A model generated the notes under the pieces. That model had not been told where the DNA came from. It saw nothing but the letters and a program-made list of their open reading frames with translations, and made no database searches. The position numbers were made by a program, and so were the translations under genes. Shown one piece after another: positions 4,040 to 18,934 of a stretch of 32,080 nucleotides of DNA. This stretch comes from an uncultured Prevotellaceae bacterium (lineage in GTDB: Bacteria; Bacteroidota; Bacteroidia; Bacteroidales; Bacteroidaceae): contig CAMNJH010000012.1 in the NCBI GenBank assembly GCA_946541275.1, forward strand, positions 1 through 32,080, written 5' to 3'. Each line of letters opens with the position of its first letter. Positions within the stretch are counted from its first letter, which is position 1.

Positions 4040-4096
4040 GAAACGTATTTGCAAATCTATGCAACAAACGGCCAAAACTGTTTTCCCTTTTTGCCG

Positions 4097-4104
4097 TACC
4101 TTTG
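4097..4104 (+). promoter_or_regulatory. Putative -7 promoter box (TACCTTTG) for the GH98 gene
   Basis: TACCTTTG matches the Bacteroidetes -7 consensus TAnnTTTG and lies 28 nt before the chosen ATG. No TTTG is found 20 nt upstream, so the promoter is weak or needs an activator. Confidence 0.55.
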
Positions 4105-4132
4105 CACGGACATTACAAATTTACAAATACTT

Positions 4133-7100
4133 ATGAAAAAGAAATCCATCCTAGCACTTCGTTTCCTCATTTCGCTCATGTTGCTTTTGGCCTGCCAAAG
4201 CATCATGGCACAACAACGTCGCCCCATTGACAATGAGCATCCCCTGTGGCTGATCCATGTTGACGTGTGGTACAAGGCCGACCCGCAGAAAATCATCGAC
4301 CTCATCCCCGAAGACATCAGACCCTATGTGTGCATGAATCTGAGTCTGTCGTGCGGTTACGACAAAGACAAGAACGTGTACAAAATGCCGCAGTATGCCT
4401 TCCAGACCTACAAGTCGTGGGGCACCGTGTGCCAGAAGAACGGAGTTTGGTTCACCTGTCAGCCGGCCAGCGGCGGACATACCCACATACAGGATGACGA
4501 CCTGCCCATGTTCGAGTTCTTCTTCAAGCAGTTCCCCAATTTTCTGGGCTGGAACTACGCCGAACAGTTCTGGGGCTTCGACGAGGCTGGCGACATGAGC
4601 TCCAGCACGCAGACAGCTCGCTGGGCTTTGTTTGCCAAGCTGGTGGAGATGTCACATCAGTACGGCGGTTTCCTCACCGTATCCTTCTGTGGAAACATCT
4701 GGAGCCATCCGCTGAACCCGCTCGGACAGATGAAGCGTGAGCCAAAGCTCCTGGAAGCCTGCAAAAAATATCCTGAAGCCATTCTCTGGCTCTATAAGTA
4801 CACCACCAGCTCCTGCTTCTACAACAACGAGAGCGTCACCTTTGGTCCCTTCATCTCAGGCCTGGCCAACAACTACGGTGTGCGCTATGACAACTGCGGT
4901 TGGAACGGAGCGCTTGACGCCATCTTGGGCGAAAACCACGGCAAGAAATATCCCGGTGCTGCCGGCATCGGAACCGTGATGGAGCAGAGCTGCGTCAACG
5001 GCGGTGCCGTCTGGGACGGCCCTGAGCTGACCTGGCGTGAAGAGTGCTTCCATGAAATCAACCAGAGCACCGTTGACGGCTACAAGCGTCGCAACTGGGG
5101 CCGTTTCCCCAACTTCAACGGTGTCTGGGCCGACATGTTCCGCAAGATTATTGACGGCACCATGTACATCCCCAGCCGTGAAGAGGTGGTTGGCAAGACC
5201 AAGATTGTTGTCATCAACGACAAGACCAGCGGCAACGACGAGGACAAATACGCCACATGGGGCTCGCTCTACGACGGGCTCTACAAGCAGACCGACCCCT
5301 TCAACCGCGGCAATGGACAGTGGATGGACAACTTCTGCTACTTTAAGTCAACGGGCCGCTACGGCACTATCCCCATGGTGACGGGGCTCTACGACGACCT
5401 GGCCAGGTCTATTCCCGTACAGGTAAAGAAATCCAACTATACATCGCGCTGGGGAAGCAATTCCAAGAAGCAGGCCGACTTCAGGGAGCAATACCCCGAG
5501 GTGAGCAAAGGCGACCTCTATGTGAACCGCTACCGCAACCAGCTGGTCACCTATACGCCTTACACTTATTTGAATAAGAAGACCTCGGCCAGCGCCACCA
5601 TTCCCCTGCAGTACAACACCTGCGACACGCTGGTGCTGACCTACGACAAGCTATCGGGCGGCGTCATCCGTGAGTTCAGTGACCATATTGACTTCTACCT
5701 GAACAACTACCGCAACGACACCACCACCCAGCGCACCGACGTCATCACACTGAAGGGTGTAGCTGCCGAGCCCACCTTCACCCTGACCAAGCATGCCAAC
5801 ACCACTGGCGGGACCACCACCACCGCCTATGACGCCGAATCGCAGTCCTACACGCTCACCGTGAAGCACCTGGGAGGCGTTGACCTGACCATCAACTGTT
5901 CCGGCAATGCCGACCGCTCCGAGGGCCCCGACGACCCCATCGCCATCAACCCGCTGCCACTGCCCAAGCAGCCCGAGCTGTACCGTGGCGAAATACTCAT
6001 TGAAGGCGAGGACATGGACTTCAAGAACGTCAGCAACTGCTGCACCGACCCCTACAACTGGTATCCCAACGTTCGCGGCCACTCTGGCAACGGCTTTGTC
6101 GACATGGGCACCAACAGCACCGGAGCCCTGCGCCACCAGCTGAAGCTGGCCGCCGGACAGGAGGGCAGCTACTACGTCAGCGTGCGCTATACCTGCACAT
6201 CAAAGACTGGAAACATCTCCATCAACGTGAACGGCAACCGCCAGAACGTGAGATGCGAGAAGACCGCCACCAACGAATGGCGCTGGGCCACCATGGAGGC
6301 CACCATGAAGGAGGGCACCAACAGCCTGGTCCTCATCAATGCTGGCTCCCTGCCCATGTACATCGACCAGATCAGCTACCGTCCCACCGACGTGGAGCCC
6401 ATGAAGTACCTGGTCACCGTCCGCGACGCTGAGCATGGCACCATCGTGGCCGACAAGCAGGAGGCTGCCGAGGGCGACACCATCACGTTGAGCGTCACAC
6501 CCGATGAGGGCTGCCGACTGAAGGAGCTGCGCCTGGTGAATTCTGTATTCTACACGCTGTCACGCACTATCGCCGTCAACGGCGACAACGAGGTAACCTT
6601 CGTCATGCCCAACGACAATGTGACGCTGCAACCCGTCTTCGCCGACATGAGCATTGCCTACAAGCTGGACTTTGCCAACGTGAGCAATGGCACCATGCCC
6701 GAGGGATGGCGCTGCGTACAAGAGAACAATGACGTGCACGAGTATCCCAACAGCTTCGGCCAGGGAGCCCGCACCTTCAGCGGCTTCTCAGGCTATCAGG
6801 GCAAGGCCCTCTACTGGCGCAACGACCGCGCAGAGTATGGCCGGCAGGCCTCCTATCGTCTGTCCCTGGAGCCCGGCAGCTACAAGCTCACCTTTGCCAT
6901 GGCCGCTTGGAAGGAAAGCCCGAATTACAAGGTGCAGCTGCTCAATCTGCAGACGGGCAGCGCCGTTGTCACCTCCGATATCTATACCGCCAGTCCCAAT
7001 GCCAACGGCAGCACCTCGGCCAACCTGCGGTCTGCCGTCAGCCGTACGCTTGAGTTCGACGTCACCCAGAAGGGCAACTACGTCATCAGCTTCACCGACG

Positions 7101-7315
7101 AGACCTCGGGCGGAGGATACCACGAGTTCCTGCTGCTCGACTGCCGCCTGACCATCGTGCCCACGTCTGATGCCATTGCCGGCGTGCCCCAGTCCGTTGA
7201 GGGCCCCACCACCGTCTACGACATGATGGGCCGCAGGCAGACCAGCACACGTCGCGGACAGGTGCTACTGCTGCGTTCTGCCGACGGCTCCGTGCGCAAA
7301 GTACTGGCCAAGTAA
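4133..7315 (+). CDS. Secreted multidomain glycoside hydrolase, GH98-like
   Basis: The ATG at 4133 gives a classic signal peptide (MKKKSILALRFLISLML..., likely cleaved near SIMA-QQ) and a 1060-aa protein; the ORF-track start precedes the promoter. Residues about 30-350 resemble GH98 catalytic domains, with HPLWLIHVDVWYKADPQKII, IRPYVCMNLSLS, NFLGWNYAEQFWGF and VRYDNCGW. The E of NYAEQ and the D of RYDN are candidate catalytic acids. A GH98-type C-terminal beta domain follows to about 590. Then come a CBM6/35-like jelly roll (about 620-750), an InlB-like repeat (VTVRDAEHGTIV to VTFVMPNDNV), another jelly roll (about 850-1005), and a tail with VYDMMGRR and KVLAK resembling type IX secretion sorting tails. 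GH98 enzymes are endo-acting on host-type galactosyl glycans or on xylan; which applies here cannot be said. No SusC/SusD genes are adjacent. Confidence 0.83.
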   Translation: MKKKSILALRFLISLMLLLACQSIMAQQRRPIDNEHPLWLIHVDVWYKADPQKIIDLIPEDIRPYVCMNLSLSCGYDKDKNVYKMPQYAFQTYKSWGTVCQKNGVWFTCQPASGGHTHIQDDDLPMFEFFFKQFPNFLGWNYAEQFWGFDEAGDMSSSTQTARWALFAKLVEMSHQYGGFLTVSFCGNIWSHPLNPLGQMKREPKLLEACKKYPEAILWLYKYTTSSCFYNNESVTFGPFISGLANNYGVRYDNCGWNGALDAILGENHGKKYPGAAGIGTVMEQSCVNGGAVWDGPELTWREECFHEINQSTVDGYKRRNWGRFPNFNGVWADMFRKIIDGTMYIPSREEVVGKTKIVVINDKTSGNDEDKYATWGSLYDGLYKQTDPFNRGNGQWMDNFCYFKSTGRYGTIPMVTGLYDDLARSIPVQVKKSNYTSRWGSNSKKQADFREQYPEVSKGDLYVNRYRNQLVTYTPYTYLNKKTSASATIPLQYNTCDTLVLTYDKLSGGVIREFSDHIDFYLNNYRNDTTTQRTDVITLKGVAAEPTFTLTKHANTTGGTTTTAYDAESQSYTLTVKHLGGVDLTINCSGNADRSEGPDDPIAINPLPLPKQPELYRGEILIEGEDMDFKNVSNCCTDPYNWYPNVRGHSGNGFVDMGTNSTGALRHQLKLAAGQEGSYYVSVRYTCTSKTGNISINVNGNRQNVRCEKTATNEWRWATMEATMKEGTNSLVLINAGSLPMYIDQISYRPTDVEPMKYLVTVRDAEHGTIVADKQEAAEGDTITLSVTPDEGCRLKELRLVNSVFYTLSRTIAVNGDNEVTFVMPNDNVTLQPVFADMSIAYKLDFANVSNGTMPEGWRCVQENNDVHEYPNSFGQGARTFSGFSGYQGKALYWRNDRAEYGRQASYRLSLEPGSYKLTFAMAAWKESPNYKVQLLNLQTGSAVVTSDIYTASPNANGSTSANLRSAVSRTLEFDVTQKGNYVISFTDETSGGGYHEFLLLDCRLTIVPTSDAIAGVPQSVEGPTTVYDMMGRRQTSTRRGQVLLLRSADGSVRKVLAK

Positions 7316-9349: not shown

Positions 9350-10375
9350 ATGCCCATGAACCGACTGTGCTACATATCACGCAACTATGCCAGCTTGAAG
9401 GGAGCCGGCAGCAAGGCCAAGACCGACAACGAGCAGACGCTCCGACAGATGGGAGCCGTCAACCTGGGGCTGCCCACCACCCACTATGACAACATGGTGC
9501 TCACCTTCCTACTCAACCTGGCAGGCGTGCTCCGTCTGGCTCTGACCGCCAGGCGCCATGACGTCATCGTGCTGCAGTACCCCGTGAAGAAGTACTTCAG
9601 CTTCCTCTGCCGCGCCGCCCATTGGCGGGGAGCCAAGGTTGTGACCATCGTTCACGACCTTACCGCCCTCCACCGCCACCGCGTCACCATCGAGAAGGAG
9701 ATAAGCCGGCTGATGCGCTCTGACCACGTCATCGCCTCCAACGAGGCCATGATGCACTGGCTGAAGGAGAACGGCCTCAGCCGCCCCATCACGCCATTGG
9801 GCCTGTTCGACTATCGCTCAGAAGCACGGCCCGCCCATCGGTCCACCACCCTCTCGCTGGTCTATGCTGGAGCACTCACGCCACGCAAGAACGCCTATCT
9901 GCCCCTGCTGGCCAGCAGCCCCATGGGCATCAAGCTCCACGTATACGGCAACTGCGATGCACTGCCCGGACTGCAGCAGGCCCCCCACGCCGTCTGCCAT
10001 CCCTTTGCTCCCGCCGACGAGTTCATCCGACAGGGCGAGGGCGACTTCGGACTGGTATGGGATGGCGACTCACTGGAGACTTGCCAAGGCGACTTCGGAC
10101 AGTACCTGCGCTACAACAGCCCCCACAAGGTGTCGTTCTACCTGCGAGCCGGCAAGCCCGTCGTCATCTGGCAGCAAGCCGCAGTGGCACCCATCATCGA
10201 GCGCGAGGGCATCGGCCTGCTCATCAGCTCCCTTGACCAGCTGCAGCAAACCCTGGAGCATCTCACCCCCCAACAGATGGCTGCCATGAACGAGAACGTC
10301 AGCCGCATCAGTGATAAGCTCAGCAAGGGCGGCTTCCTTCAGGAAGCATTGCAGAAGGTTCTGCCCACGCTTTAG
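9350..10375 (+). CDS. GT-B-fold glycosyltransferase (galactofuranosyltransferase/Gtf3-like)
   Basis: This 341-aa protein follows the GT90 gene after 6 bp and probably belongs to the same transcript; an alternative ATG lies two codons in (9356). The N-terminal half has YISRNYASLKGAGSKAKTDNEQTL, then VIVLQYPVKKYF, and VVTIVHDL...HR, a pattern seen in WbbI-like galactofuranosyltransferases and Gtf3-like enzymes. The C-terminal donor domain contains LVYAGAL, LVWDGDSLETCQGDFGQYLRYNSPHK and YLRAGKPVVIW. It likely adds a sugar to the LPS/LOS core. Its last five codons (CTGCCCACGCTTTAG) are part of a 64-bp repeat that recurs downstream of preA. The exact sugar is not predictable. Confidence 0.77.
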   Translation: MPMNRLCYISRNYASLKGAGSKAKTDNEQTLRQMGAVNLGLPTTHYDNMVLTFLLNLAGVLRLALTARRHDVIVLQYPVKKYFSFLCRAAHWRGAKVVTIVHDLTALHRHRVTIEKEISRLMRSDHVIASNEAMMHWLKENGLSRPITPLGLFDYRSEARPAHRSTTLSLVYAGALTPRKNAYLPLLASSPMGIKLHVYGNCDALPGLQQAPHAVCHPFAPADEFIRQGEGDFGLVWDGDSLETCQGDFGQYLRYNSPHKVSFYLRAGKPVVIWQQAAVAPIIEREGIGLLISSLDQLQQTLEHLTPQQMAAMNENVSRISDKLSKGGFLQEALQKVLPTL

Positions 10376-10424
10376 GCCCTTCAAATGACAAGAGCCTCAC
10401 GGCTCCACACGTAGTACGCGCGTT
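10361..10424 (+). repeat. 64-bp direct repeat, copy 1
   Basis: It begins CTGCCCACGCTTTAGG and ends in GTACGCGCGTT. Copy 2 (12132-12195) differs at only two positions. The unit spans the last five codons of the glycosyltransferase gene plus 49 bp of intergenic DNA, and contains the small hairpin GAGCC-TCAC-GGCTC (10392-10405). A further shared box, CCTGGGTATAC, follows about 17 nt later. Confidence 0.9.
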
Positions 10425-10460
10425 TTGCACCCCTTTAACACCCTGGGTATACCTGCTGAA

Positions 10461-10490
10461 AATGAGAAATGAGGAATGAAAAATGAGAAA
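10461..10490 (+). repeat. Purine-rich AATGAR simple repeat upstream of preA
   Basis: Degenerate tandem units (AATGAGA, AATGAGG, AATGAAA, AATGAGA) lie between repeat copy 1 and the preA promoter. Related AATGA-type stretches occur at 3000-3025 and, as the complement, at 31727-31752. Confidence 0.55.
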
Positions 10491-10517
10491 ACATGGTACT
10501 CTTTGCTAATTATTTGT

Positions 10518-10525
10518 TAACTTTG
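10518..10525 (+). promoter_or_regulatory. Putative -7 promoter box (TAACTTTG) for preA
   Basis: This matches TAnnTTTG and lies 62 nt upstream of the preA ATG, leaving a leader of about 57 nt. A -33 TTTG at the normal distance is absent (TGGT is found there). Confidence 0.5.
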
Positions 10526-10587
10526 CAGACGAATAACTGATTGAACTTGATAAGCAAACGAAACAATAACTAAAAACTAAACTTGCT

Positions 10588-12093
10588 ATGAATAGGAATA
10601 GGCAAATGCATCTTCAGGAAGAAGCAGCACGGTGTCTGCTTTGCATGGATGCTCCATGCAGTCAAGTGTGTAGAACAGGTGACCCGGCACGAGCCATCAG
10701 AGCAATCCGCTTTGGCAACGAAAGCCTGGCAGGACAATGGCTTGTCGAGTGTACGGACGAGGATTTGGTAGCAGCTGAGAATGCCTGCATCCATTATGAC
10801 AGACCCATTCGTATCCTTGAACTGGCTCATTCAGTGTGTGCTGGGCCGACTGGTTCGGCATGTCATGAACTGGTTAAGACTGGCGGAACAGCCCCTTCGC
10901 TCGCCATCGACTTCTGCGGCATTCGTTGTGATAATCCTTTCTTCCTGGCTTCCTCTGCCGTCTGCACCAACTATGAAATGGTAGCGCGCGCCTTTGAAGC
11001 AGGATGGGCGGGGGTGTTCTACAAGACAATCTGTCTGCAGGAGATTCGCGAGGTGTCTCCCCGTTTTGATGCTGTCCAACAAGAAGGGCAGGCTGACTTC
11101 TACGCATTTCGCAATATGGAGCAGTTGAGTGAGAATCCCACAGAGATGGACTTCGACATCCTGCGCCGCCTGAAGCAGGACTACCCCACGAAGGTGGTTA
11201 TTGCCAGCATTATGGGACAGACAGAGGAAGAGTGGATTGAGCTGGCCAAGATGGCAGAGACGGCTGGAGTAGATGCCATCGAACTGAACTTCTCATGTCC
11301 ACAGATGCGACTCACAGGCATGGGCAGCGACGTGGGACAGAACCCTGAACTGGTGATGTTCTACACGGCATACGTGAAACGCTCAGTCTCCATTCCCGTC
11401 ATTCCCAAGATGACACCCAACATCACGCAAATCAACCAACCAGCCATTGCTGCCTACTTTGCCGATGCCGACGCCATTTCAGCCATCAACACCATCAAGA
11501 GCGTCACCATGGGCGACAGAGCCCGCGTCTCGGGCCATAAGACCATCTCAGGTCTCTCGGGCCGTGCTGTCCGTCCTATCGCACTCCGCCATATTTTGGA
11601 AATGGCACAGAGTCCCATGCTCAGTGGTACGCTTGGCAGGACAATGGAACTCAGCGGCATCGGTGGAATTGAGACTTGGCGTGACGCACTGGAGTTCATT
11701 CAGCTTGGCTGCCGCAATGTGCAGGTATGCACAGCTGTGATGCAGTACGGCTACCGCATCATTGACGACCTCATCCTGGGTCTGCAGAACTATCTTGCAG
11801 AATGTGGCATCATCGACTTGGCAGACATCGTGGGTGAGGAACTGCCGAACTTCGTGACACCCACCGACTTGGACCGCGAGACCATTGTTTATCCCAAGAT
11901 AGACACTAACAAGTGCATGGGCTGCGGGCGCTGCTACGTCTCTTGCATGGACGGCGGCCACCAGGCCATTGTCTTCGATGCAGCCACTCGCCAGCCCCGC
12001 ATCATGGGCACCAAGTGCGTCGGCTGTCACCTCTGCCGTCTCGTCTGTCCCACAGGAGCCATCGGAACCACAAAACGCATTCCCAAGAAGTAG
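10588..12093 (+). CDS. preA: Dihydropyrimidine dehydrogenase-like PreA with extra N-terminal Fe-S domain
   Basis: The 501-aa protein has three parts. Residues about 10-95 form a cysteine-rich domain (CLLCMDAPCSQVC, C16/C19/C24/C28) like the one that starts PreT, GltD and eukaryotic DPD. Residues about 100-415 are an FMN-binding TIM barrel of the dihydroorotate/dihydropyrimidine dehydrogenase family, with LNFSCPQM carrying the active-site Cys and NTIKSV, SGLSGRAVRP and IGGIETW phosphate-binding blocks. The C-terminus has two [4Fe-4S] ferredoxin motifs (CMGCGRCYVSC, CVGCHLCRLVC). E. coli PreA is about 411 aa and lacks the first part. It would reduce uracil/thymine, or oxidise the dihydro forms. 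No preT flavoprotein is adjacent. The gene is monocistronic, sits between two LPS-type clusters, and is bracketed by a direct repeat; its 5' portion looks less GC-biased than its neighbours. Confidence 0.88.
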   Translation: MNRNRQMHLQEEAARCLLCMDAPCSQVCRTGDPARAIRAIRFGNESLAGQWLVECTDEDLVAAENACIHYDRPIRILELAHSVCAGPTGSACHELVKTGGTAPSLAIDFCGIRCDNPFFLASSAVCTNYEMVARAFEAGWAGVFYKTICLQEIREVSPRFDAVQQEGQADFYAFRNMEQLSENPTEMDFDILRRLKQDYPTKVVIASIMGQTEEEWIELAKMAETAGVDAIELNFSCPQMRLTGMGSDVGQNPELVMFYTAYVKRSVSIPVIPKMTPNITQINQPAIAAYFADADAISAINTIKSVTMGDRARVSGHKTISGLSGRAVRPIALRHILEMAQSPMLSGTLGRTMELSGIGGIETWRDALEFIQLGCRNVQVCTAVMQYGYRIIDDLILGLQNYLAECGIIDLADIVGEELPNFVTPTDLDRETIVYPKIDTNKCMGCGRCYVSCMDGGHQAIVFDAATRQPRIMGTKCVGCHLCRLVCPTGAIGTTKRIPKK

Positions 12094-12131
12094 CATTTGT
12101 TACCTTTCACTCGTCTGTAGAGTTCTTAGTA

Positions 12132-12195
12132 CTGCCCACGCTTTAGGCCCTTCAACTGACAAGAGCCTCACGGCTCCACACGTCGTACGCGCGTT
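12132..12195 (+). repeat. 64-bp direct repeat, copy 2
   Basis: This is a near-identical copy (two mismatches) of 10361-10424, placed 38 bp after the preA stop. It carries a non-functional copy of the last codons and stop (CTGCCCACGCTTTAG) of the upstream glycosyltransferase gene. A second shared box, CCTGGGGTATAC, follows at 12230-12241. Confidence 0.9.
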
Positions 12196-12218
12196 CATTT
12201 TAAAACTTAAAACGCGCG
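12188..12218. other. Hairpin in the convergent preA / kinase intergenic region
   Basis: CGCGCGTT (12188-12195) pairs perfectly with AACGCGCG (12211-12218) around a 15-nt AT-rich loop. It begins at the end of repeat copy 2. It could act as a bidirectional terminator for two convergent operons, but there is no adjoining T-run. Confidence 0.45.
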
Positions 12219-12257
12219 CATGAGGGATGCCTGGGGTATACAAGCGGTTCTTCAGGG

Positions 12258-13004
12258 TTACAGGTGGAAGCGTCTGTTTTCAAAGCGCTCCAGAAGCTGG
12301 AGCGCCTGGCTGGCAGTTTCATCAGGGTTCCATCCGCGCAGACGGGCATAGCGACGGACGAGGTCTTCATAGAGGTCACGGCGATGGGTGAGGCGGACCA
12401 TGTTCTGCAGGCATTCAGCTGGGGCAGGCATCCCAGCGGTGAAGTGCGAGCGGTTGGTGTCTATCATGATGAAGTGGCGGTCATCGGTTCCCTCATCAGT
12501 GAACGGTGAGGGCGTGGGAGCAAGAAGGAAATTGGACAGGTTCAAATCGCCATGGAGCACTCCGCGACTGTGCATGCGCACCACCTGGCGCGCCACAGCC
12601 TCGGCCAAGTCGGGGGGATAGTCGTGAACCTCGCGCAGCAGCAGCGATGTCTCGGTGCCCAGCACCTCGAGGCTGACAAAATAACCGGTGGTGAAAAGAC
12701 CGTGGTGGCGCTGCTCCATGTAGGCTACGGGCTGGGGTGTGTCGATGCCGCGCTGGAGGAACTCGGAAGCGAAGCGGAAGGCTCGCTCGGCCTTGGTCTT
12801 CCGGAAGAAGGTGTAGACGACCTGCTGCACCAGGTTGACACGTTTGAATCGCTTCACCATCATAGGCTGCCCACCCATGATAAAGCGCACCACGCGGTTG
12901 CGGCTGTTGTAGACGGTCTGGCCCTGGCCCTCTTCCATCATCTGGGGCAGGCGGCCTATCTCAGCAGCAAGATGCTGAAAGCGCTGGTCAACAACTATCT
13001 TCAT
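12258..13004 (-). CDS. Kdo/WaaP-family lipopolysaccharide kinase-like protein
   Basis: This 248-aa protein is the last gene of the phosphonate operon. It has a small protein-kinase-like fold: MMVKRF with a candidate ATP-binding Lys (K51), HGDLNLSNFLL (catalytic loop, D153), and IMIDTNRSHF in place of the DFG motif (D182). The pattern matches the Kdo kinase/WaaP/InaA group that phosphorylates sugars of the LPS inner core on the cytoplasmic side. Its start overlaps the upstream licD stop by 4 bp (ATGA), so production is coupled to LicD. It may phosphorylate the glycan that the LicD proteins then decorate, or an independent core sugar. The substrate is an inference from family and context. Confidence 0.83.
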   Translation of the reverse strand: MKIVVDQRFQHLAAEIGRLPQMMEEGQGQTVYNSRNRVVRFIMGGQPMMVKRFKRVNLVQQVVYTFFRKTKAERAFRFASEFLQRGIDTPQPVAYMEQRHHGLFTTGYFVSLEVLGTETSLLLREVHDYPPDLAEAVARQVVRMHSRGVLHGDLNLSNFLLAPTPSPFTDEGTDDRHFIMIDTNRSHFTAGMPAPAECLQNMVRLTHRRDLYEDLVRRYARLRGWNPDETASQALQLLERFENRRFHL

Positions 13005-13876: not shown

Positions 13877-14678
13877 GTTTTCTATAGGGCCTATTAAAGT
13901 CAACATAGTGGAAGCAGTGCTGCCGCTGCCCCTGCTGGGAGGGCGGCGTCATGTAGTCGCCATACATGTGGGTGAGATAAGCATCGGCATGCTCCACGCC
14001 CAGCACCTGATGGCCCTCGAACACGACGGGCGTAGGCCGGCCCACTACCTGCTTGTCAATCACTCCGTGGAAGCCGTCATCAAAGACGCATACCTTCTGG
14101 CTCGTGTCGAAGGGGTATTTGCACAGCAGACGGCGGGTGGCGCGCTGCAGGCGTTGCTGGCCCATGACCTTCCGGCACAGCAGCGGCAGCCAGCTGGAGG
14201 GGCCGTGGCCATGGCGATAGGGGTCGCGGTAGGCCATATAGACCAGCTTCTTCAGCACGTCGTAGCGCACCAAGTGCCAGCGGCGCAGCAAGGCGCTGGA
14301 GGGCACGCCGTCGATGGGAAAGACATCGATGTAGAGACCGCCGAGGTAAGGCAGGTGTGGGCGCTCGATGAGGGTGGTGCTGGCATCCTGCACCTTTCCG
14401 AAGGGCAGCGGATAGGTGGGGTCGGTCTCGAAAGCCACGAACTCATAGGGCCGGGGCAGCCACTCATTGGCATGGGCGATGAAGGTCTCATAGTCGGGGC
14501 GCGGCATGGCAATGTCGAGGTCATCGTCCCAGGGGATGAAGCCTTGATGGCGGACGGCACCCAGCATGGTGCCATCATAAATATAATAATGTAAGGAGTG
14601 CTCACGGCAGACCTTGTCGACAGCCAGCAGGTTGCCAAGGATGCGCAGTTGCAGGGTCCTTACATCGTATTCAATCAT
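13845..14678 (-). CDS. LicD-family phosphotransferase (second of two)
   Basis: The track ORF is 388 aa, but its first 111 residues lie out of frame inside phnW. The ATG at 14678 (MIEYDVRTLQLRILGNLL) overlaps the phnW stop by 8 bp and gives a 277-aa LicD protein. The core reads DGTMLGAVRHQGFIPWDDDLDIAM, close to the canonical LicD motif, followed by LGGLYIDVFPIDGVP, which is also typical. It probably transfers AEP from CMP-AEP to a glycan. Two LicD proteins in tandem suggest two acceptor positions or a heteromeric enzyme. The C-terminal tail (about 20 residues) is polar and low-complexity. Confidence 0.85.
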   Translation of the reverse strand: MIEYDVRTLQLRILGNLLAVDKVCREHSLHYYIYDGTMLGAVRHQGFIPWDDDLDIAMPRPDYETFIAHANEWLPRPYEFVAFETDPTYPLPFGKVQDASTTLIERPHLPYLGGLYIDVFPIDGVPSSALLRRWHLVRYDVLKKLVYMAYRDPYRHGHGPSSWLPLLCRKVMGQQRLQRATRRLLCKYPFDTSQKVCVFDDGFHGVIDKQVVGRPTPVVFEGHQVLGVEHADAYLTHMYGDYMTPPSQQGQRQHCFHYVDFNRPYRKHGTTEGSMAH

Positions 14679-15801
14679 GATAGCGGGCGGGAATGCTGAT
14701 GTTGAACTCGGCGAAGGCCCGGCGCAGCACGCGGAAGAAGGCCTCGATGTCGTCGGCATCGATGGTGCCGAGGGCGCAGAGGCGGAATGTGTTCGTGGTG
14801 GAAATCTTACCAGGATAGATAGTGAAGCCGTGCTCGTAGCAATAGTCGTGCACCCGCTCGAAGCTCCAGTTAGGGTCGTCGGGATAAAGAACGCTGGCCA
14901 CAAGCCCCGACTGTATGTCACGACGTATGACCTCGCGCAGTCCCATGGCGGCCAGTCCCTCGTGGATGGCATCGATGACGCGGTGATGGCGGGCGAATTT
15001 GGCCTCCTCACCCACCTCGAAGTACTCCTTCAGCGCCTGTATGGTAGCATAGATGGTCTGCACGGGCGGCGTGAAGTGCATCTCGCCAGTACGCTCAAAG
15101 AAGTCGTACTGCAGGAAGAGGTTGCAGTAGTAGGAGCGCTTGGGGTAGTCCTTGGAGCGCCGTATGATTTCCTCGTTGCCAATGATGAACGACAGGCCTG
15201 CCATGGCCATCAGGCCCTTCTGGGCGGAGGCCATGCAGAAGTCGACATTGTCCTGCTCGATGTCGAAGGGAATCATGCCGAGCGACGAGGTGGTGTCGAC
15301 CACGAACACGGCGCCGTGCTCATGGGCCAAGGCGCCTATCTCACGGATGGGGTTGAGGATGCCCGTGCCCGTCTCGTGATGGGTGGTGTAGACGAGGGCG
15401 ATGTCGGGGTTCTCGTCGAGCGTCTGCTTCACGGCGTCAAGGTCAGGCTGTTCGAAGACCGACGAGCGCAGGTCGATGTGTGGCAGGCCGTAGTACTGGC
15501 ATATTTCCACGGCGCGCGAGCTATAGGCGCCGTTGTTCACCACTAGCACGCGCTTGCCGGCGGGCAGGAGCGAGTTGAGGCAGATGTCAATGTTGATGGT
15601 GCCACTGCCGCAGAACAGCACGGAGGTGTACTTCTCCTGGGGGGCATGGGCCACGCGCAGCAGGTCGGCGCGCAGGCTTTTCATCATGCCTGCAAATTCT
15701 TTCTCACGCGGGCAGATGTCGGGCACCACCTGGGCCAGTTTTACGGTATCGGTAGTTGTGGCGGGTCCTGGGTTCAGCAGGACGTTTCTCTTTATTTTCA
15801 T
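14671..15801 (-). CDS. phnW: 2-aminoethylphosphonate--pyruvate transaminase
   Basis: This is a 376-aa class V (fold-type I) PLP aminotransferase. It begins with LLNPGPATTTDTVK, a hallmark of PhnW and related enzymes, and has HHETGTGILNP, the PLP-contacting Asp in VFVVDTTSS (about residue 169), and SAQKGLMAMAG with the Schiff-base Lys195. In degradative loci PhnW removes the amino group from AEP. Here, next to PEP mutase and phosphonopyruvate decarboxylase, it must run in the biosynthetic direction, aminating phosphonoacetaldehyde to AEP. Its start overlaps the upstream decarboxylase fusion by 4 bp and its end overlaps licD by 8 bp, so the operon is translationally coupled. Confidence 0.93.
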   Translation of the reverse strand: MKIKRNVLLNPGPATTTDTVKLAQVVPDICPREKEFAGMMKSLRADLLRVAHAPQEKYTSVLFCGSGTINIDICLNSLLPAGKRVLVVNNGAYSSRAVEICQYYGLPHIDLRSSVFEQPDLDAVKQTLDENPDIALVYTTHHETGTGILNPIREIGALAHEHGAVFVVDTTSSLGMIPFDIEQDNVDFCMASAQKGLMAMAGLSFIIGNEEIIRRSKDYPKRSYYCNLFLQYDFFERTGEMHFTPPVQTIYATIQALKEYFEVGEEAKFARHHRVIDAIHEGLAAMGLREVIRRDIQSGLVASVLYPDDPNWSFERVHDYCYEHGFTIYPGKISTTNTFRLCALGTIDADDIEAFFRVLRRAFAEFNISIPARYHD

Positions 15802-17633
15802 AGGAAAGGAATAATATGTTCTTCTGCAAAACGCAAATCGTCAATGTCATCAATCTCGTACCACTTCAGGCCTTCCTCACAGAGAACGTAGACGGGCGAG
15901 ACCTCACGCGACATGCTGAGCAGCTCGTACTCGTAGCCCAGCTTCGGCTGGTGGGCCACCTTGCGGGCATAGTCGGCGCACATTTTCTGATAGAAAGCAT
16001 TCGAGAGCTTGTGGATGCCGACGAGCTCGCCGCTGGCGTTCACCTCGTCCTTGTTCACGGAGCAGTTGGTAAGCACGCCGTCGGCACTGCGCTCCACGTA
16101 ATACTGGTCCTGGAACTTCGTGACGGGCGTGATGAGCATCACGTCGGGCTGCTGACAGTCCTGCAATGCCGTGATGGCGCGACGCTCGAACACGAGGTCG
16201 CTCTCGAGGAGCAGGAAGTCGTCGCTGCCGATGATGTCACGGCAGTTGTAGAGTGTGTACATGCTGTTGGTCTCGGCATAGCGCGGACTGAAGCAGCACT
16301 CTATCTGGGGAAATTTGGCGGCCAGCTCCTCGTAGGCCTCACGCAGATAGCCCGTGCCGATGATGATGCGCCGGATGCCGCAGTCGAGCAGCGTCTCGAT
16401 GCTGCGCACCACCATGGCCTTGCCGCCGGCCTCTATGAAGCCCTTGGGGCGCTCCTCGGTCATTGTGCCGAAGCGCGTGCCCATGCCGGCAGCCATGATG
16501 ACGGCGGTCTTGGGGTGAGAGGTCTTCAACAGGCCGTTCATGAAGGCGTCCTTGTTCTCAATGGGCGTGGTGGTGGGGCGGCCCAGGTCGTCGCGTGAGT
16601 TGATGGCCACTCGCAACTCCAGGAACACGGGGCCGTCCAGATGCTCCAGCTGCTGAAGTGCGCCTACCATCTCGTCGGCGGTGGTGGCAGTGAGCACATG
16701 GCGATAGCCGCTTGCCCTGGCCATGCCGACGGCGTCAAGACGGAAACCGATGGTGGGCTGTCCGCCAACGCTCTCGTGGGCACCGTTATTGAACAGGATG
16801 TGGAAGAAATTGCGAGGTTGCATGGAGGCATTGATACCCAAAGCACCGGCGTGCATGATGAAAGCGCCGTCGCCATCGAAGCAGAACACGCGACGTGCTG
16901 GCTGCTCCAGGGCGATGCCCAAGGCGATGCTGGAGCTGTGACCCATTGACCCCACGGTGAGGAAGTCGTGGCCGTGGCCTTCATGGCGGGCCTCACGCAG
17001 CTCAAAGAGCTCCCGCGACAACTTCCCCGTAGTGGAAACAATCACATCGTCCTGGCGCATGTGCTCTACCACCAGTTTCAAGGCGTCCTCGCGGCTCAGC
17101 GGATTGTCGTTATGGCTGGCATTCCTCAGCTTGTAGGAGCCGAAGGTGCCCTTTCGGATAACCAGCGCCGTGGGGGCCTTCCGCTGCATGGCCAACTGCA
17201 CCATGGCGCCTATCTGGGCTGTGTTCTCCAATATCTGGTAAGGAATCTGCATGGCATCGAGCAAAGCCAGCGTCACCTCGCCCTGCTTGACATGTTGCGG
17301 CTCGTCGTGCACGCCAGGTTCGCCACGCCAGCCAATTATGAGCACCATGGGAATGCTGTACACTTTCTCGTCGGCCAGCGACAGCAGTGGATTGACCGTG
17401 TTTCCCAGACCAGAGTTCTGCATGTAGACCAAAGCGGGATGGCCCGTGGCCAGATAGTGACCGGCGGCTATGCCCACGGCGTTGCCCTCGTTGGCTGCAA
17501 TGATGTGGTGCTGCTTGTCGGCGGTATCAGTGACGTATGCGCAGAAATTCTTCAGCAGTGAGTCGGGCACGCCGGTGAACATGTCCACACCGTTTTCTAT
17601 CAGGGCATCGTATGTTTCTTTTACCTCAATCAT
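15798..17633 (-). CDS. aepY: Phosphonopyruvate decarboxylase fused to LicC/PntC-like cytidylyltransferase
   Basis: The ATG at 17633 (MIEVKETYDALIENG) overlaps the upstream PEP mutase stop by 4 bp; the longer ORF start is spurious. The 611-aa protein has two enzymes. Residues 1 to about 360 are a thiamine-diphosphate decarboxylase: GVPDSLLKNF, the catalytic Glu in NEGNAVGIAAGHY, and the TPP motif from GDGAF (254) to NNGAHESVGG (282). It converts phosphonopyruvate to phosphonoacetaldehyde and so pulls the unfavourable mutase equilibrium. Residues about 375-611 are a sugar-nucleotide-type transferase: AAGMGTRFGTMTEERPKG, LLESDLVFE and EIDDIDDL, closest to LicC and PntC. It probably makes CMP-AEP from CTP and AEP. 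Both sets of motifs look intact, so both halves should be active. A linker of about 15 residues joins them. Confidence 0.9.
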   Translation of the reverse strand: MIEVKETYDALIENGVDMFTGVPDSLLKNFCAYVTDTADKQHHIIAANEGNAVGIAAGHYLATGHPALVYMQNSGLGNTVNPLLSLADEKVYSIPMVLIIGWRGEPGVHDEPQHVKQGEVTLALLDAMQIPYQILENTAQIGAMVQLAMQRKAPTALVIRKGTFGSYKLRNASHNDNPLSREDALKLVVEHMRQDDVIVSTTGKLSRELFELREARHEGHGHDFLTVGSMGHSSSIALGIALEQPARRVFCFDGDGAFIMHAGALGINASMQPRNFFHILFNNGAHESVGGQPTIGFRLDAVGMARASGYRHVLTATTADEMVGALQQLEHLDGPVFLELRVAINSRDDLGRPTTTPIENKDAFMNGLLKTSHPKTAVIMAAGMGTRFGTMTEERPKGFIEAGGKAMVVRSIETLLDCGIRRIIIGTGYLREAYEELAAKFPQIECCFSPRYAETNSMYTLYNCRDIIGSDDFLLLESDLVFERRAITALQDCQQPDVMLITPVTKFQDQYYVERSADGVLTNCSVNKDEVNASGELVGIHKLSNAFYQKMCADYARKVAHQPKLGYEYELLSMSREVSPVYVLCEEGLKWYEIDDIDDLRFAEEHIIPFL

Positions 17634-18934
17634 TTGGTTCCGGGAATAAGTTCTAAGATTTGCTTGATAGGCATACACAGGTCATTGGCGTCGTAGCTGC
17701 GGTGATTCTGAAGGATAGATGTGGCCACCCGAACCATGGCCGGGTAGGCAGCACGCAGCATGTGATTAGCATAGATGACCACCTTGATGCCCCATTCGGC
17801 CAGCTCTTCTTCACGCAAATGATTATAGGTGGTGGGCACGGCAACGATGGGCACGTAGGGATGCAGCTGACGGAAGCGCTGACAGAACTGACGGATGTCA
17901 TCGCCGGTCTTCTCCTTCGAGTGAATCATGATGCCGTCGGCACCACCCCGCTCCACATAGGCGCTGCACCGCTCAATGGCATCGTCGACGCTCTTGCCGG
18001 CAATGAGGCTCTCGCAACGGGCAATAATCATGAAGTCCTTGGTCACCTGGGCGTTCTTGCCGGCACGAATCTTCTGGCAGAAATTCTCAATGGTGTCCTG
18101 CGTCTGTATGGCATCAGTGCCGAAGAGTGAGTTCTTCTTCAGGCCCACCTTGTCCTCGATAATGACGGCCGAGATGCCGTTGCGCTCCAGTGTGCGGACA
18201 GTGAAGACGAAGTGCTCAAGCTTGCCGCCCGTATCACCGTCGTAGATGATGGGCTTCGTGGTGCACTCCAGAATGTTGGTCAGGTCCTGCATACGCGTCG
18301 TCAGGTCAACGGCCTCGATGTCGGGCTTGCCTTTCGAGGTGCTGTCGGTGAGCGACGAGCTCCACATACCGTCAAAGGTGTCCATGTAGAGGCCATTCTT
18401 CACCTCAAGGTTCTCGCAGATAAGTCCCGACAAGCCGTCGTGAACCTCCAGGATGCGCACCACGGGCTTGGCGTCGATGAGCCGTCGCAACGTCTTCAGG
18501 CGAATGTCGGGCGTGGTGCCGATGCCTTTTATCTCCTTGTCGAGCGATGACGAGTCAATGCCCTTGGTATAGGGAATCTCTATCACCTGGCCGCCCAGCT
18601 CTTTCATCACCTGAAGAGTTTCTTCACGCAGCTCGCGGTCGGGGCCGTTCTGCCAGTCGTCACCATGAATGATGTAGTCAGGCTTCAGCCGGCGCAGGTT
18701 GGGAGCATAGCTCCATTCTTCCTGTGGCACCACCGCAGTGACGTTCTTGATGTTCTCCACTACATTCTTACGTTGCTCATAAGTAAGGTAGGGCAGGCGT
18801 TTGTGCTGGGCTATGGCCTTGTCAGTGAACAGACCTATGACTACATTGCCATACTTGGCGCCCTCGTTGATAATGTTGATCAGCCCCGGATGCATGATGT
18901 CAGCAATCATGCCTAGGTAAACCGTTTTATTCAT
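17630..18934 (-). CDS. aepX: Phosphoenolpyruvate mutase with N-terminal nucleotidyltransferase-like domain
   Basis: This is the first gene of the phosphonate operon and the committing step of C-P bond formation. The 434-aa protein carries the mutase fingerprint EDKVGLKKNS (residues 260-269), YDGDTGG (231-237) and SSLTDSTSKGKPDIE, which distinguish PEP mutases from isocitrate lyase relatives. Residues 1 to about 145 form a cytidylyltransferase-like Rossmann domain (YLGMIADIMHPGLINII ... IGTTPDIR). The usual HxGH catalytic motif is HPGL here, so the second His is missing and activity of that domain is doubtful. B. fragilis-type AepX proteins have a similar length (from memory). A -7-type box lies 30 nt upstream of the ATG. 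Confidence 0.93.
   Translation of the reverse strand: MNKTVYLGMIADIMHPGLINIINEGAKYGNVVIGLFTDKAIAQHKRLPYLTYEQRKNVVENIKNVTAVVPQEEWSYAPNLRRLKPDYIIHGDDWQNGPDRELREETLQVMKELGGQVIEIPYTKGIDSSSLDKEIKGIGTTPDIRLKTLRRLIDAKPVVRILEVHDGLSGLICENLEVKNGLYMDTFDGMWSSSLTDSTSKGKPDIEAVDLTTRMQDLTNILECTTKPIIYDGDTGGKLEHFVFTVRTLERNGISAVIIEDKVGLKKNSLFGTDAIQTQDTIENFCQKIRAGKNAQVTKDFMIIARCESLIAGKSVDDAIERCSAYVERGGADGIMIHSKEKTGDDIRQFCQRFRQLHPYVPIVAVPTTYNHLREEELAEWGIKVVIYANHMLRAAYPAMVRVATSILQNHRSYDANDLCMPIKQILELIPGTK

Follow-up and report, generated by a model that had tools for sequence, protein, structure and literature searches.

A preA gene probably inserted with a 67-bp target duplication between two convergent genes of a Prevotella-type bacterium

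The locus

How does a single metabolic gene come to lie between two convergent genes, with a copy of the 3′ end of one of these neighbors on either side of it? The gene in question is preA, in the draft genome (G000) of an uncultured Prevotellaceae bacterium, and the window analysed here is the whole of one 32,080-nucleotide stretch of that genome. The features that matter are as follows.

9350–10375, + strand: GT4-type glycosyltransferase gene, galactofuranosyltransferase-like with scores below curated cut-offs; left border of the slot that holds preA
10358–10424, + strand: repeat copy 1, comprising the last codons and stop of GT4, then 49 bp of intergenic DNA
10425–12128, + strand: putative inserted segment, carrying preA alone; 1704 bp, the interval between the repeat copies
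10459–10490: low-complexity motif of the AATGAGGAATGA type, scattered in Prevotella-type genomes of the genus
10531–12090, + strand: donor-like core, preA with a 57-bp leader, 86% identical in nucleotides to genome G325
10588–12093, + strand: preA, predicted by profile match to encode an NAD-dependent dihydropyrimidine dehydrogenase subunit of 501 aa with an N-terminal extension
12129–12195, + strand: repeat copy 2, an apparent duplicate of the 3′ edge of GT4, 35 bp past the preA stop
12187–12218: hairpin ACGCGCGTT-CATTTTAAAACTT-AAAACGCGCG, unique in the genome, with its second arm beside copy 2 only
12258–13004, − strand: gene for a Kdo/WaaP-family kinase, which runs towards GT4 and borders the slot on the right

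The preA reading frame matches the PreA profile (NF006183) at 521.7 bits, against a cut-off of 335, and is the only preA in G000. A query containing the AATGAGGAATGA-type motif has matches in about 148 of the 398 genomes of the genus.

On the far side of the kinase lies a group of phosphonate genes (14671–18934, − strand), which adjoin two LicD genes and the kinase itself. They encode a PEP mutase with a cytidylyltransferase-like domain, a class-V aminotransferase, and a phosphonopyruvate-decarboxylase-like protein fused to an NTP-transferase domain. Together, the phosphonate, LicD and kinase genes probably serve the decoration of a surface glycan with aminoethylphosphonate. At 4049–7315 (+ strand), amid genes for a lipid A acyltransferase, PAP2 and glycosyltransferases, a GH98-family protein is encoded that bears an InlB-like repeat domain.

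The repeat pair

The first-pass annotation had described preA as bracketed by a 64-bp direct repeat matching at 62 positions. This is confirmed, and the repeat proves to be slightly longer: 10358–10424 and 12129–12195 are identical at 64 of 67 positions, with a start-to-start spacing of 1771 and preA in between. The mismatches are at 10360, 10385 and 10413, so that the longest exact run is 27 bp, and there is no N at the joints between the copies and the preA segment. A short match, CCTGGG(G)TATAC, is found outside both copies, a hint that the original duplication may have extended beyond 67 bp. The intergenic part of copy 1 contains a small hairpin, GAGCC-TCAC-GGCTC; the repeat as a whole folds no better than shuffles, and a comparison with known RNA families gave nothing near threshold.

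The annotation had also proposed a search for the repeat in the genome and in relatives. When copy 1 was compared by BLAST with the whole draft assembly of G000 (2.89 Mb in 235 contigs, 77% complete), the second copy was found with an E value of 9e-25 and there was no third. A 22-mer from the middle of the repeat, with three mismatches allowed, matched only the two known copies in G000, and no match to the repeat was found in 99 sampled relatives. The repeat is thus not common at gene ends genome-wide. With only these two copies in the draft genome and none seen in the sampled relatives, an interspersed element used by recombination can be ruled out.

Long direct repeats of this kind are few in G000. 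In an 800-kb sample of the genome (40 stretches of 20 kb), three long, non-simple direct-repeat pairs had their two members no more than 10 kb apart, one of them being the pair that flanks preA. Of the other two, one is promoter-like, 101 bp long and on contig 4, and the other, of 47 bp, lies inside paralogous glycosyltransferase genes on contig 28. The contig 4 pair (L264, 2371–2471 and 7035–7135) is 87% identical and lies upstream of two large ORFs, which gives it the look of duplicated promoter regions.

The hairpin at 12187–12218 lies between two convergent genes, and is therefore probably a bidirectional terminator common to GT4 and the kinase; the surrounding sequence (12100–12245) folds only moderately better than shuffles (z −2.0). 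This bears on a further point in the first-pass annotation, namely that copy 2 reproduces the last codons and stop of GT4 in a place where they are meaningless. The codons and stop are indeed there, but the place is not meaningless, in that copy 2 adjoins this unique hairpin and so the probable terminator.

The coding end of GT4 runs into copy 1, which is without the second hairpin arm, while that arm follows copy 2. Given that the native end of GT4 is in copy 1 and the probable terminator comes after copy 2, the simplest arrangement is an ancestral order of GT4, repeat, hairpin and kinase, to which the insert would have added 10425–12128 and one duplicated repeat. After such an insertion GT4 would keep its native end, the kinase would keep the putative terminator, and preA would gain it, so that neither neighbor would be damaged.

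Origin of preA

A preA match at E ≤ 1e-100 is found in 129 of the 398 genomes of the genus. The nearest of all is in G325, at 90% amino acid identity, followed by others at 81–82%. The DNA match to G325 (86%) covers 10531–12090, taking in the coding sequence and the 57 bp ahead of its start codon; there is none beyond. In core genes the relationship is different. We were unable to use rpoB as a marker of relatedness, as it was not found in the draft of G000 or in G325, and Mur ligase and RF2 were used instead. Mur ligase of G000 is 65% identical to that of G325, against 83% for G353 and G290, and RF2 is 86% identical to that of G325, against 93–95% for the nearest genomes. G353 is near G000 in core genes, yet its preA is only 72–74% identical.

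Trees of 22 genomes tell the same story. In the preA tree G000 joins G325 with support of 100/100, whereas in the RF2 tree it falls in a separate clade of 14 genomes that does not include G325 (100/98). In AU tests, placing the preA of G000 in its native clade was rejected (p 5e-61), as was grouping G000 with G325 for RF2 (p 1e-11); for Mur ligase the grouping with G325 had p 0.11, and is thus not rejected by Mur ligase alone. Given that G325 is nearest in preA but distant in core genes, that the trees conflict, and that the homology is confined to preA and its 57-bp leader, we conclude from these sequence comparisons that preA was acquired horizontally, the apparent source being a G325-related lineage within the same genus.

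The composition of the gene was also examined. Among 21 window genes measured, preA has the lowest GC3, 0.62 against 0.71–0.88 in the other 20, and within its first 90–120 codons or so the value falls to 0.45–0.48, in line with the less GC-biased codons already noticed in the 5′ part. The G325 homologue has a similar profile, again low in its 5′ part. For this reason the low 5′ GC3 is best read as a property of the gene or of its source, and not as the mark of an internal junction.

The interval between GT4 and the kinase in relatives

In four relatives (L035, L042, L053 and L079) the slot is empty, with the kinase convergent to and adjoining GT4 across a gap of nearly zero to about 130 bp; the GT4 genes of relatives are only about 50–62% identical, and these empty loci are too diverged for 67 bp to be recognised in them. 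No empty site from the same species was found among the genomes compared. Elsewhere the slot is filled, the functions being read from sequence: with a glycosyltransferase-2-like gene in L038, with a UDP-galactopyranose-mutase-like gene and another transferase in L078, with two glycan genes in L055, L056 and L058, and with an ATPase, a transferase and a LicD gene in L036. In eight loci tested, among them filled slots, no duplication of the GT4 end was present. Because it is empty in several relatives and differently filled in others, the interval between the two 3′ ends is a variable slot that accepts inserts. Here it is filled by preA, which is unrelated to surface glycans.

How the repeat may have arisen

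The explanation that best accounts for the locus, and which we consider probable, is that the preA segment was inserted between GT4 and the kinase with a 67-bp target duplication. The first-pass annotation had suggested an insertion of this kind, with duplication of the target edge, and the suggestion gains support from the foreign character of preA, the variability of the slot and the uniqueness of the repeat to this site. A fragment of about 1.7 kb, consisting of preA and a short leader from a lineage related to G325, would have entered between the two convergent genes, bringing no mobile-element enzyme with it. One recipient end, just past copy 1, would have been joined to the fragment, and the other end of the fragment would have been attached to the target 67 bp behind that point, giving rise to the duplication. 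This could have come about if a break with staggered or resected ends was filled in, or if a polymerase switched to the foreign fragment and returned to its template behind the point of departure.

The most serious alternative, which we regard as rather unlikely, is a Campbell-type integration, in which preA and an adjoining GT4-end sequence came in on a circular or concatenated molecule. One crossover between that sequence and the GT4 end in the chromosome would have left a copy on each side. A length of 67 bp is above the RecA threshold of about 30 bp for E. coli, as cited in PMC2884548, and the three mismatches could mean that the repeat was brought from another strain. However, such an event requires that the donor already had preA linked to this GT4 end, and G325 and the other genomes examined show other neighbors of preA. 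Nor does the repeat occur in viral contigs or match any plasmid or phage record. Although the data are compatible with either event, we prefer insertion in one step, which needs only a preA fragment, whereas the Campbell molecule must already join preA to the GT4 end.

Searches for a phage, plasmid or viral carrier of preA found none, the plasmids containing only distant preA genes. Tyrosine-recombinase islands are well known to produce duplication of the 3′ end of a gene, and the locus could for that reason be the remnant of an integrase element that used such an end as its att site and has since lost its integrase. We consider this improbable. An insert of 1.7 kb leaves no space for a gene besides preA, and none of the window proteins scanned was recognised as an integrase or transposase, which bears out what had been noted at first about the integrase; the region has no phage match and the repeat does not occur in viral contigs; the target is not a tRNA gene, and other genomes fill the slot without repeats. 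An integrase-borne island in the strict sense does not fit the locus, there being no integrase gene in the element. The insertion of an IS or transposon was likewise rejected: there is no transposase, there are no inverted repeats at the ends of the insert, and the duplication is 67 bp rather than short, in keeping with the earlier remark that the repeat exceeds an IS target duplication.

The repeat and the foreignness of preA are separate facts, and it could be argued that preA is the older occupant, the repeat having been added later by gene conversion or by an independent duplication of the GT4 end. This would require two events at one spot, and the repeat, which has no further copy in the genome, lies directly against the preA segment at either end, which makes a later origin very improbable. 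An assembly artefact, which might be suspected in a draft of so many contigs where the window is an entire contig, is hardly credible given three differences between the copies, a longest exact run shorter than the usual assembly words, the absence of N and the presence of preA only once in the genome.

Comparison with known systems

The locus resembles what has been named insertion with long target duplication in Helicobacter pylori, often involving restriction-modification genes (Nobusato et al., 2000, Gene 259:99, as described in PMC1643837 and PMC3154945). According to these later descriptions, one or more genes are inserted into the chromosome between direct target duplications far longer than those of IS elements. 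Two of these features are present here, namely a long flanking direct repeat (64/67) and an insert that is foreign to the recipient. The likeness is to the cases as the later papers describe them, in which the cargo is frequently but not necessarily restriction-modification genes and the event is shown by comparison of two strains; here the cargo is the metabolic gene preA, in a Prevotella-type genome.

A second comparison is with homology-facilitated illegitimate recombination during transformation, in which, as summarised in PMC2884548, foreign DNA enters without dedicated enzymes and is anchored at the recipient. As described there it replaces a segment of the recipient, whereas here there is a duplication, and no anchoring homology is seen in the insert. 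The same paper reports flanking repeats for about 10–18% of the small variable segments in E. coli, S. aureus and S. pyogenes. These are similar in that a variable segment lies between direct repeats at one locus, but their repeats are mostly <30 bp and are linked to deletions, in contrast to the 67 bp and the foreign insert found here. We regard the event as one of a known but uncommon kind, with its scar still readable and an unusual, metabolic cargo. It offers a clear instance of one metabolic gene moving between distant Prevotella-type lineages, with both joints readable and at a slot that other genomes fill differently. Taken with the patchy distribution of preA in the genus and its unlinked positions there, it gives a concrete starting point for the question of how single genes spread in Bacteroidales when no mobile element is visible.

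preA elsewhere in the genus

The surroundings of preA were compared in G000 and 21 relatives (loci L159–L168 and L244–L257). Only 2–3% of genome pairs share a preA neighbor within 1.5 kb, against 16–58% for Mur ligase and RF2, both comparison genes being core genes, and accessory genes are in general less syntenic than core genes. The shared preA neighbors come mostly from near-identical genome pairs. These figures give only a lead, that preA may be patchy and itinerant in the genus, with different surroundings in almost every genome examined. A comparable flanking repeat was found in none of the 29 other preA loci, and a flanking duplication is thus not a usual companion of preA movement.

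A broader proposal is that preA is an itinerant single gene, moving by an enzyme-free or otherwise unknown route that duplicates tens of target bases, and that the present locus is recent enough to have kept the scar; this we hold to be doubtful. As a minor observation, locus L099 (the preA of G432) has partial direct repeats of 29–55 bp, 80–90% identical, between its two sides.
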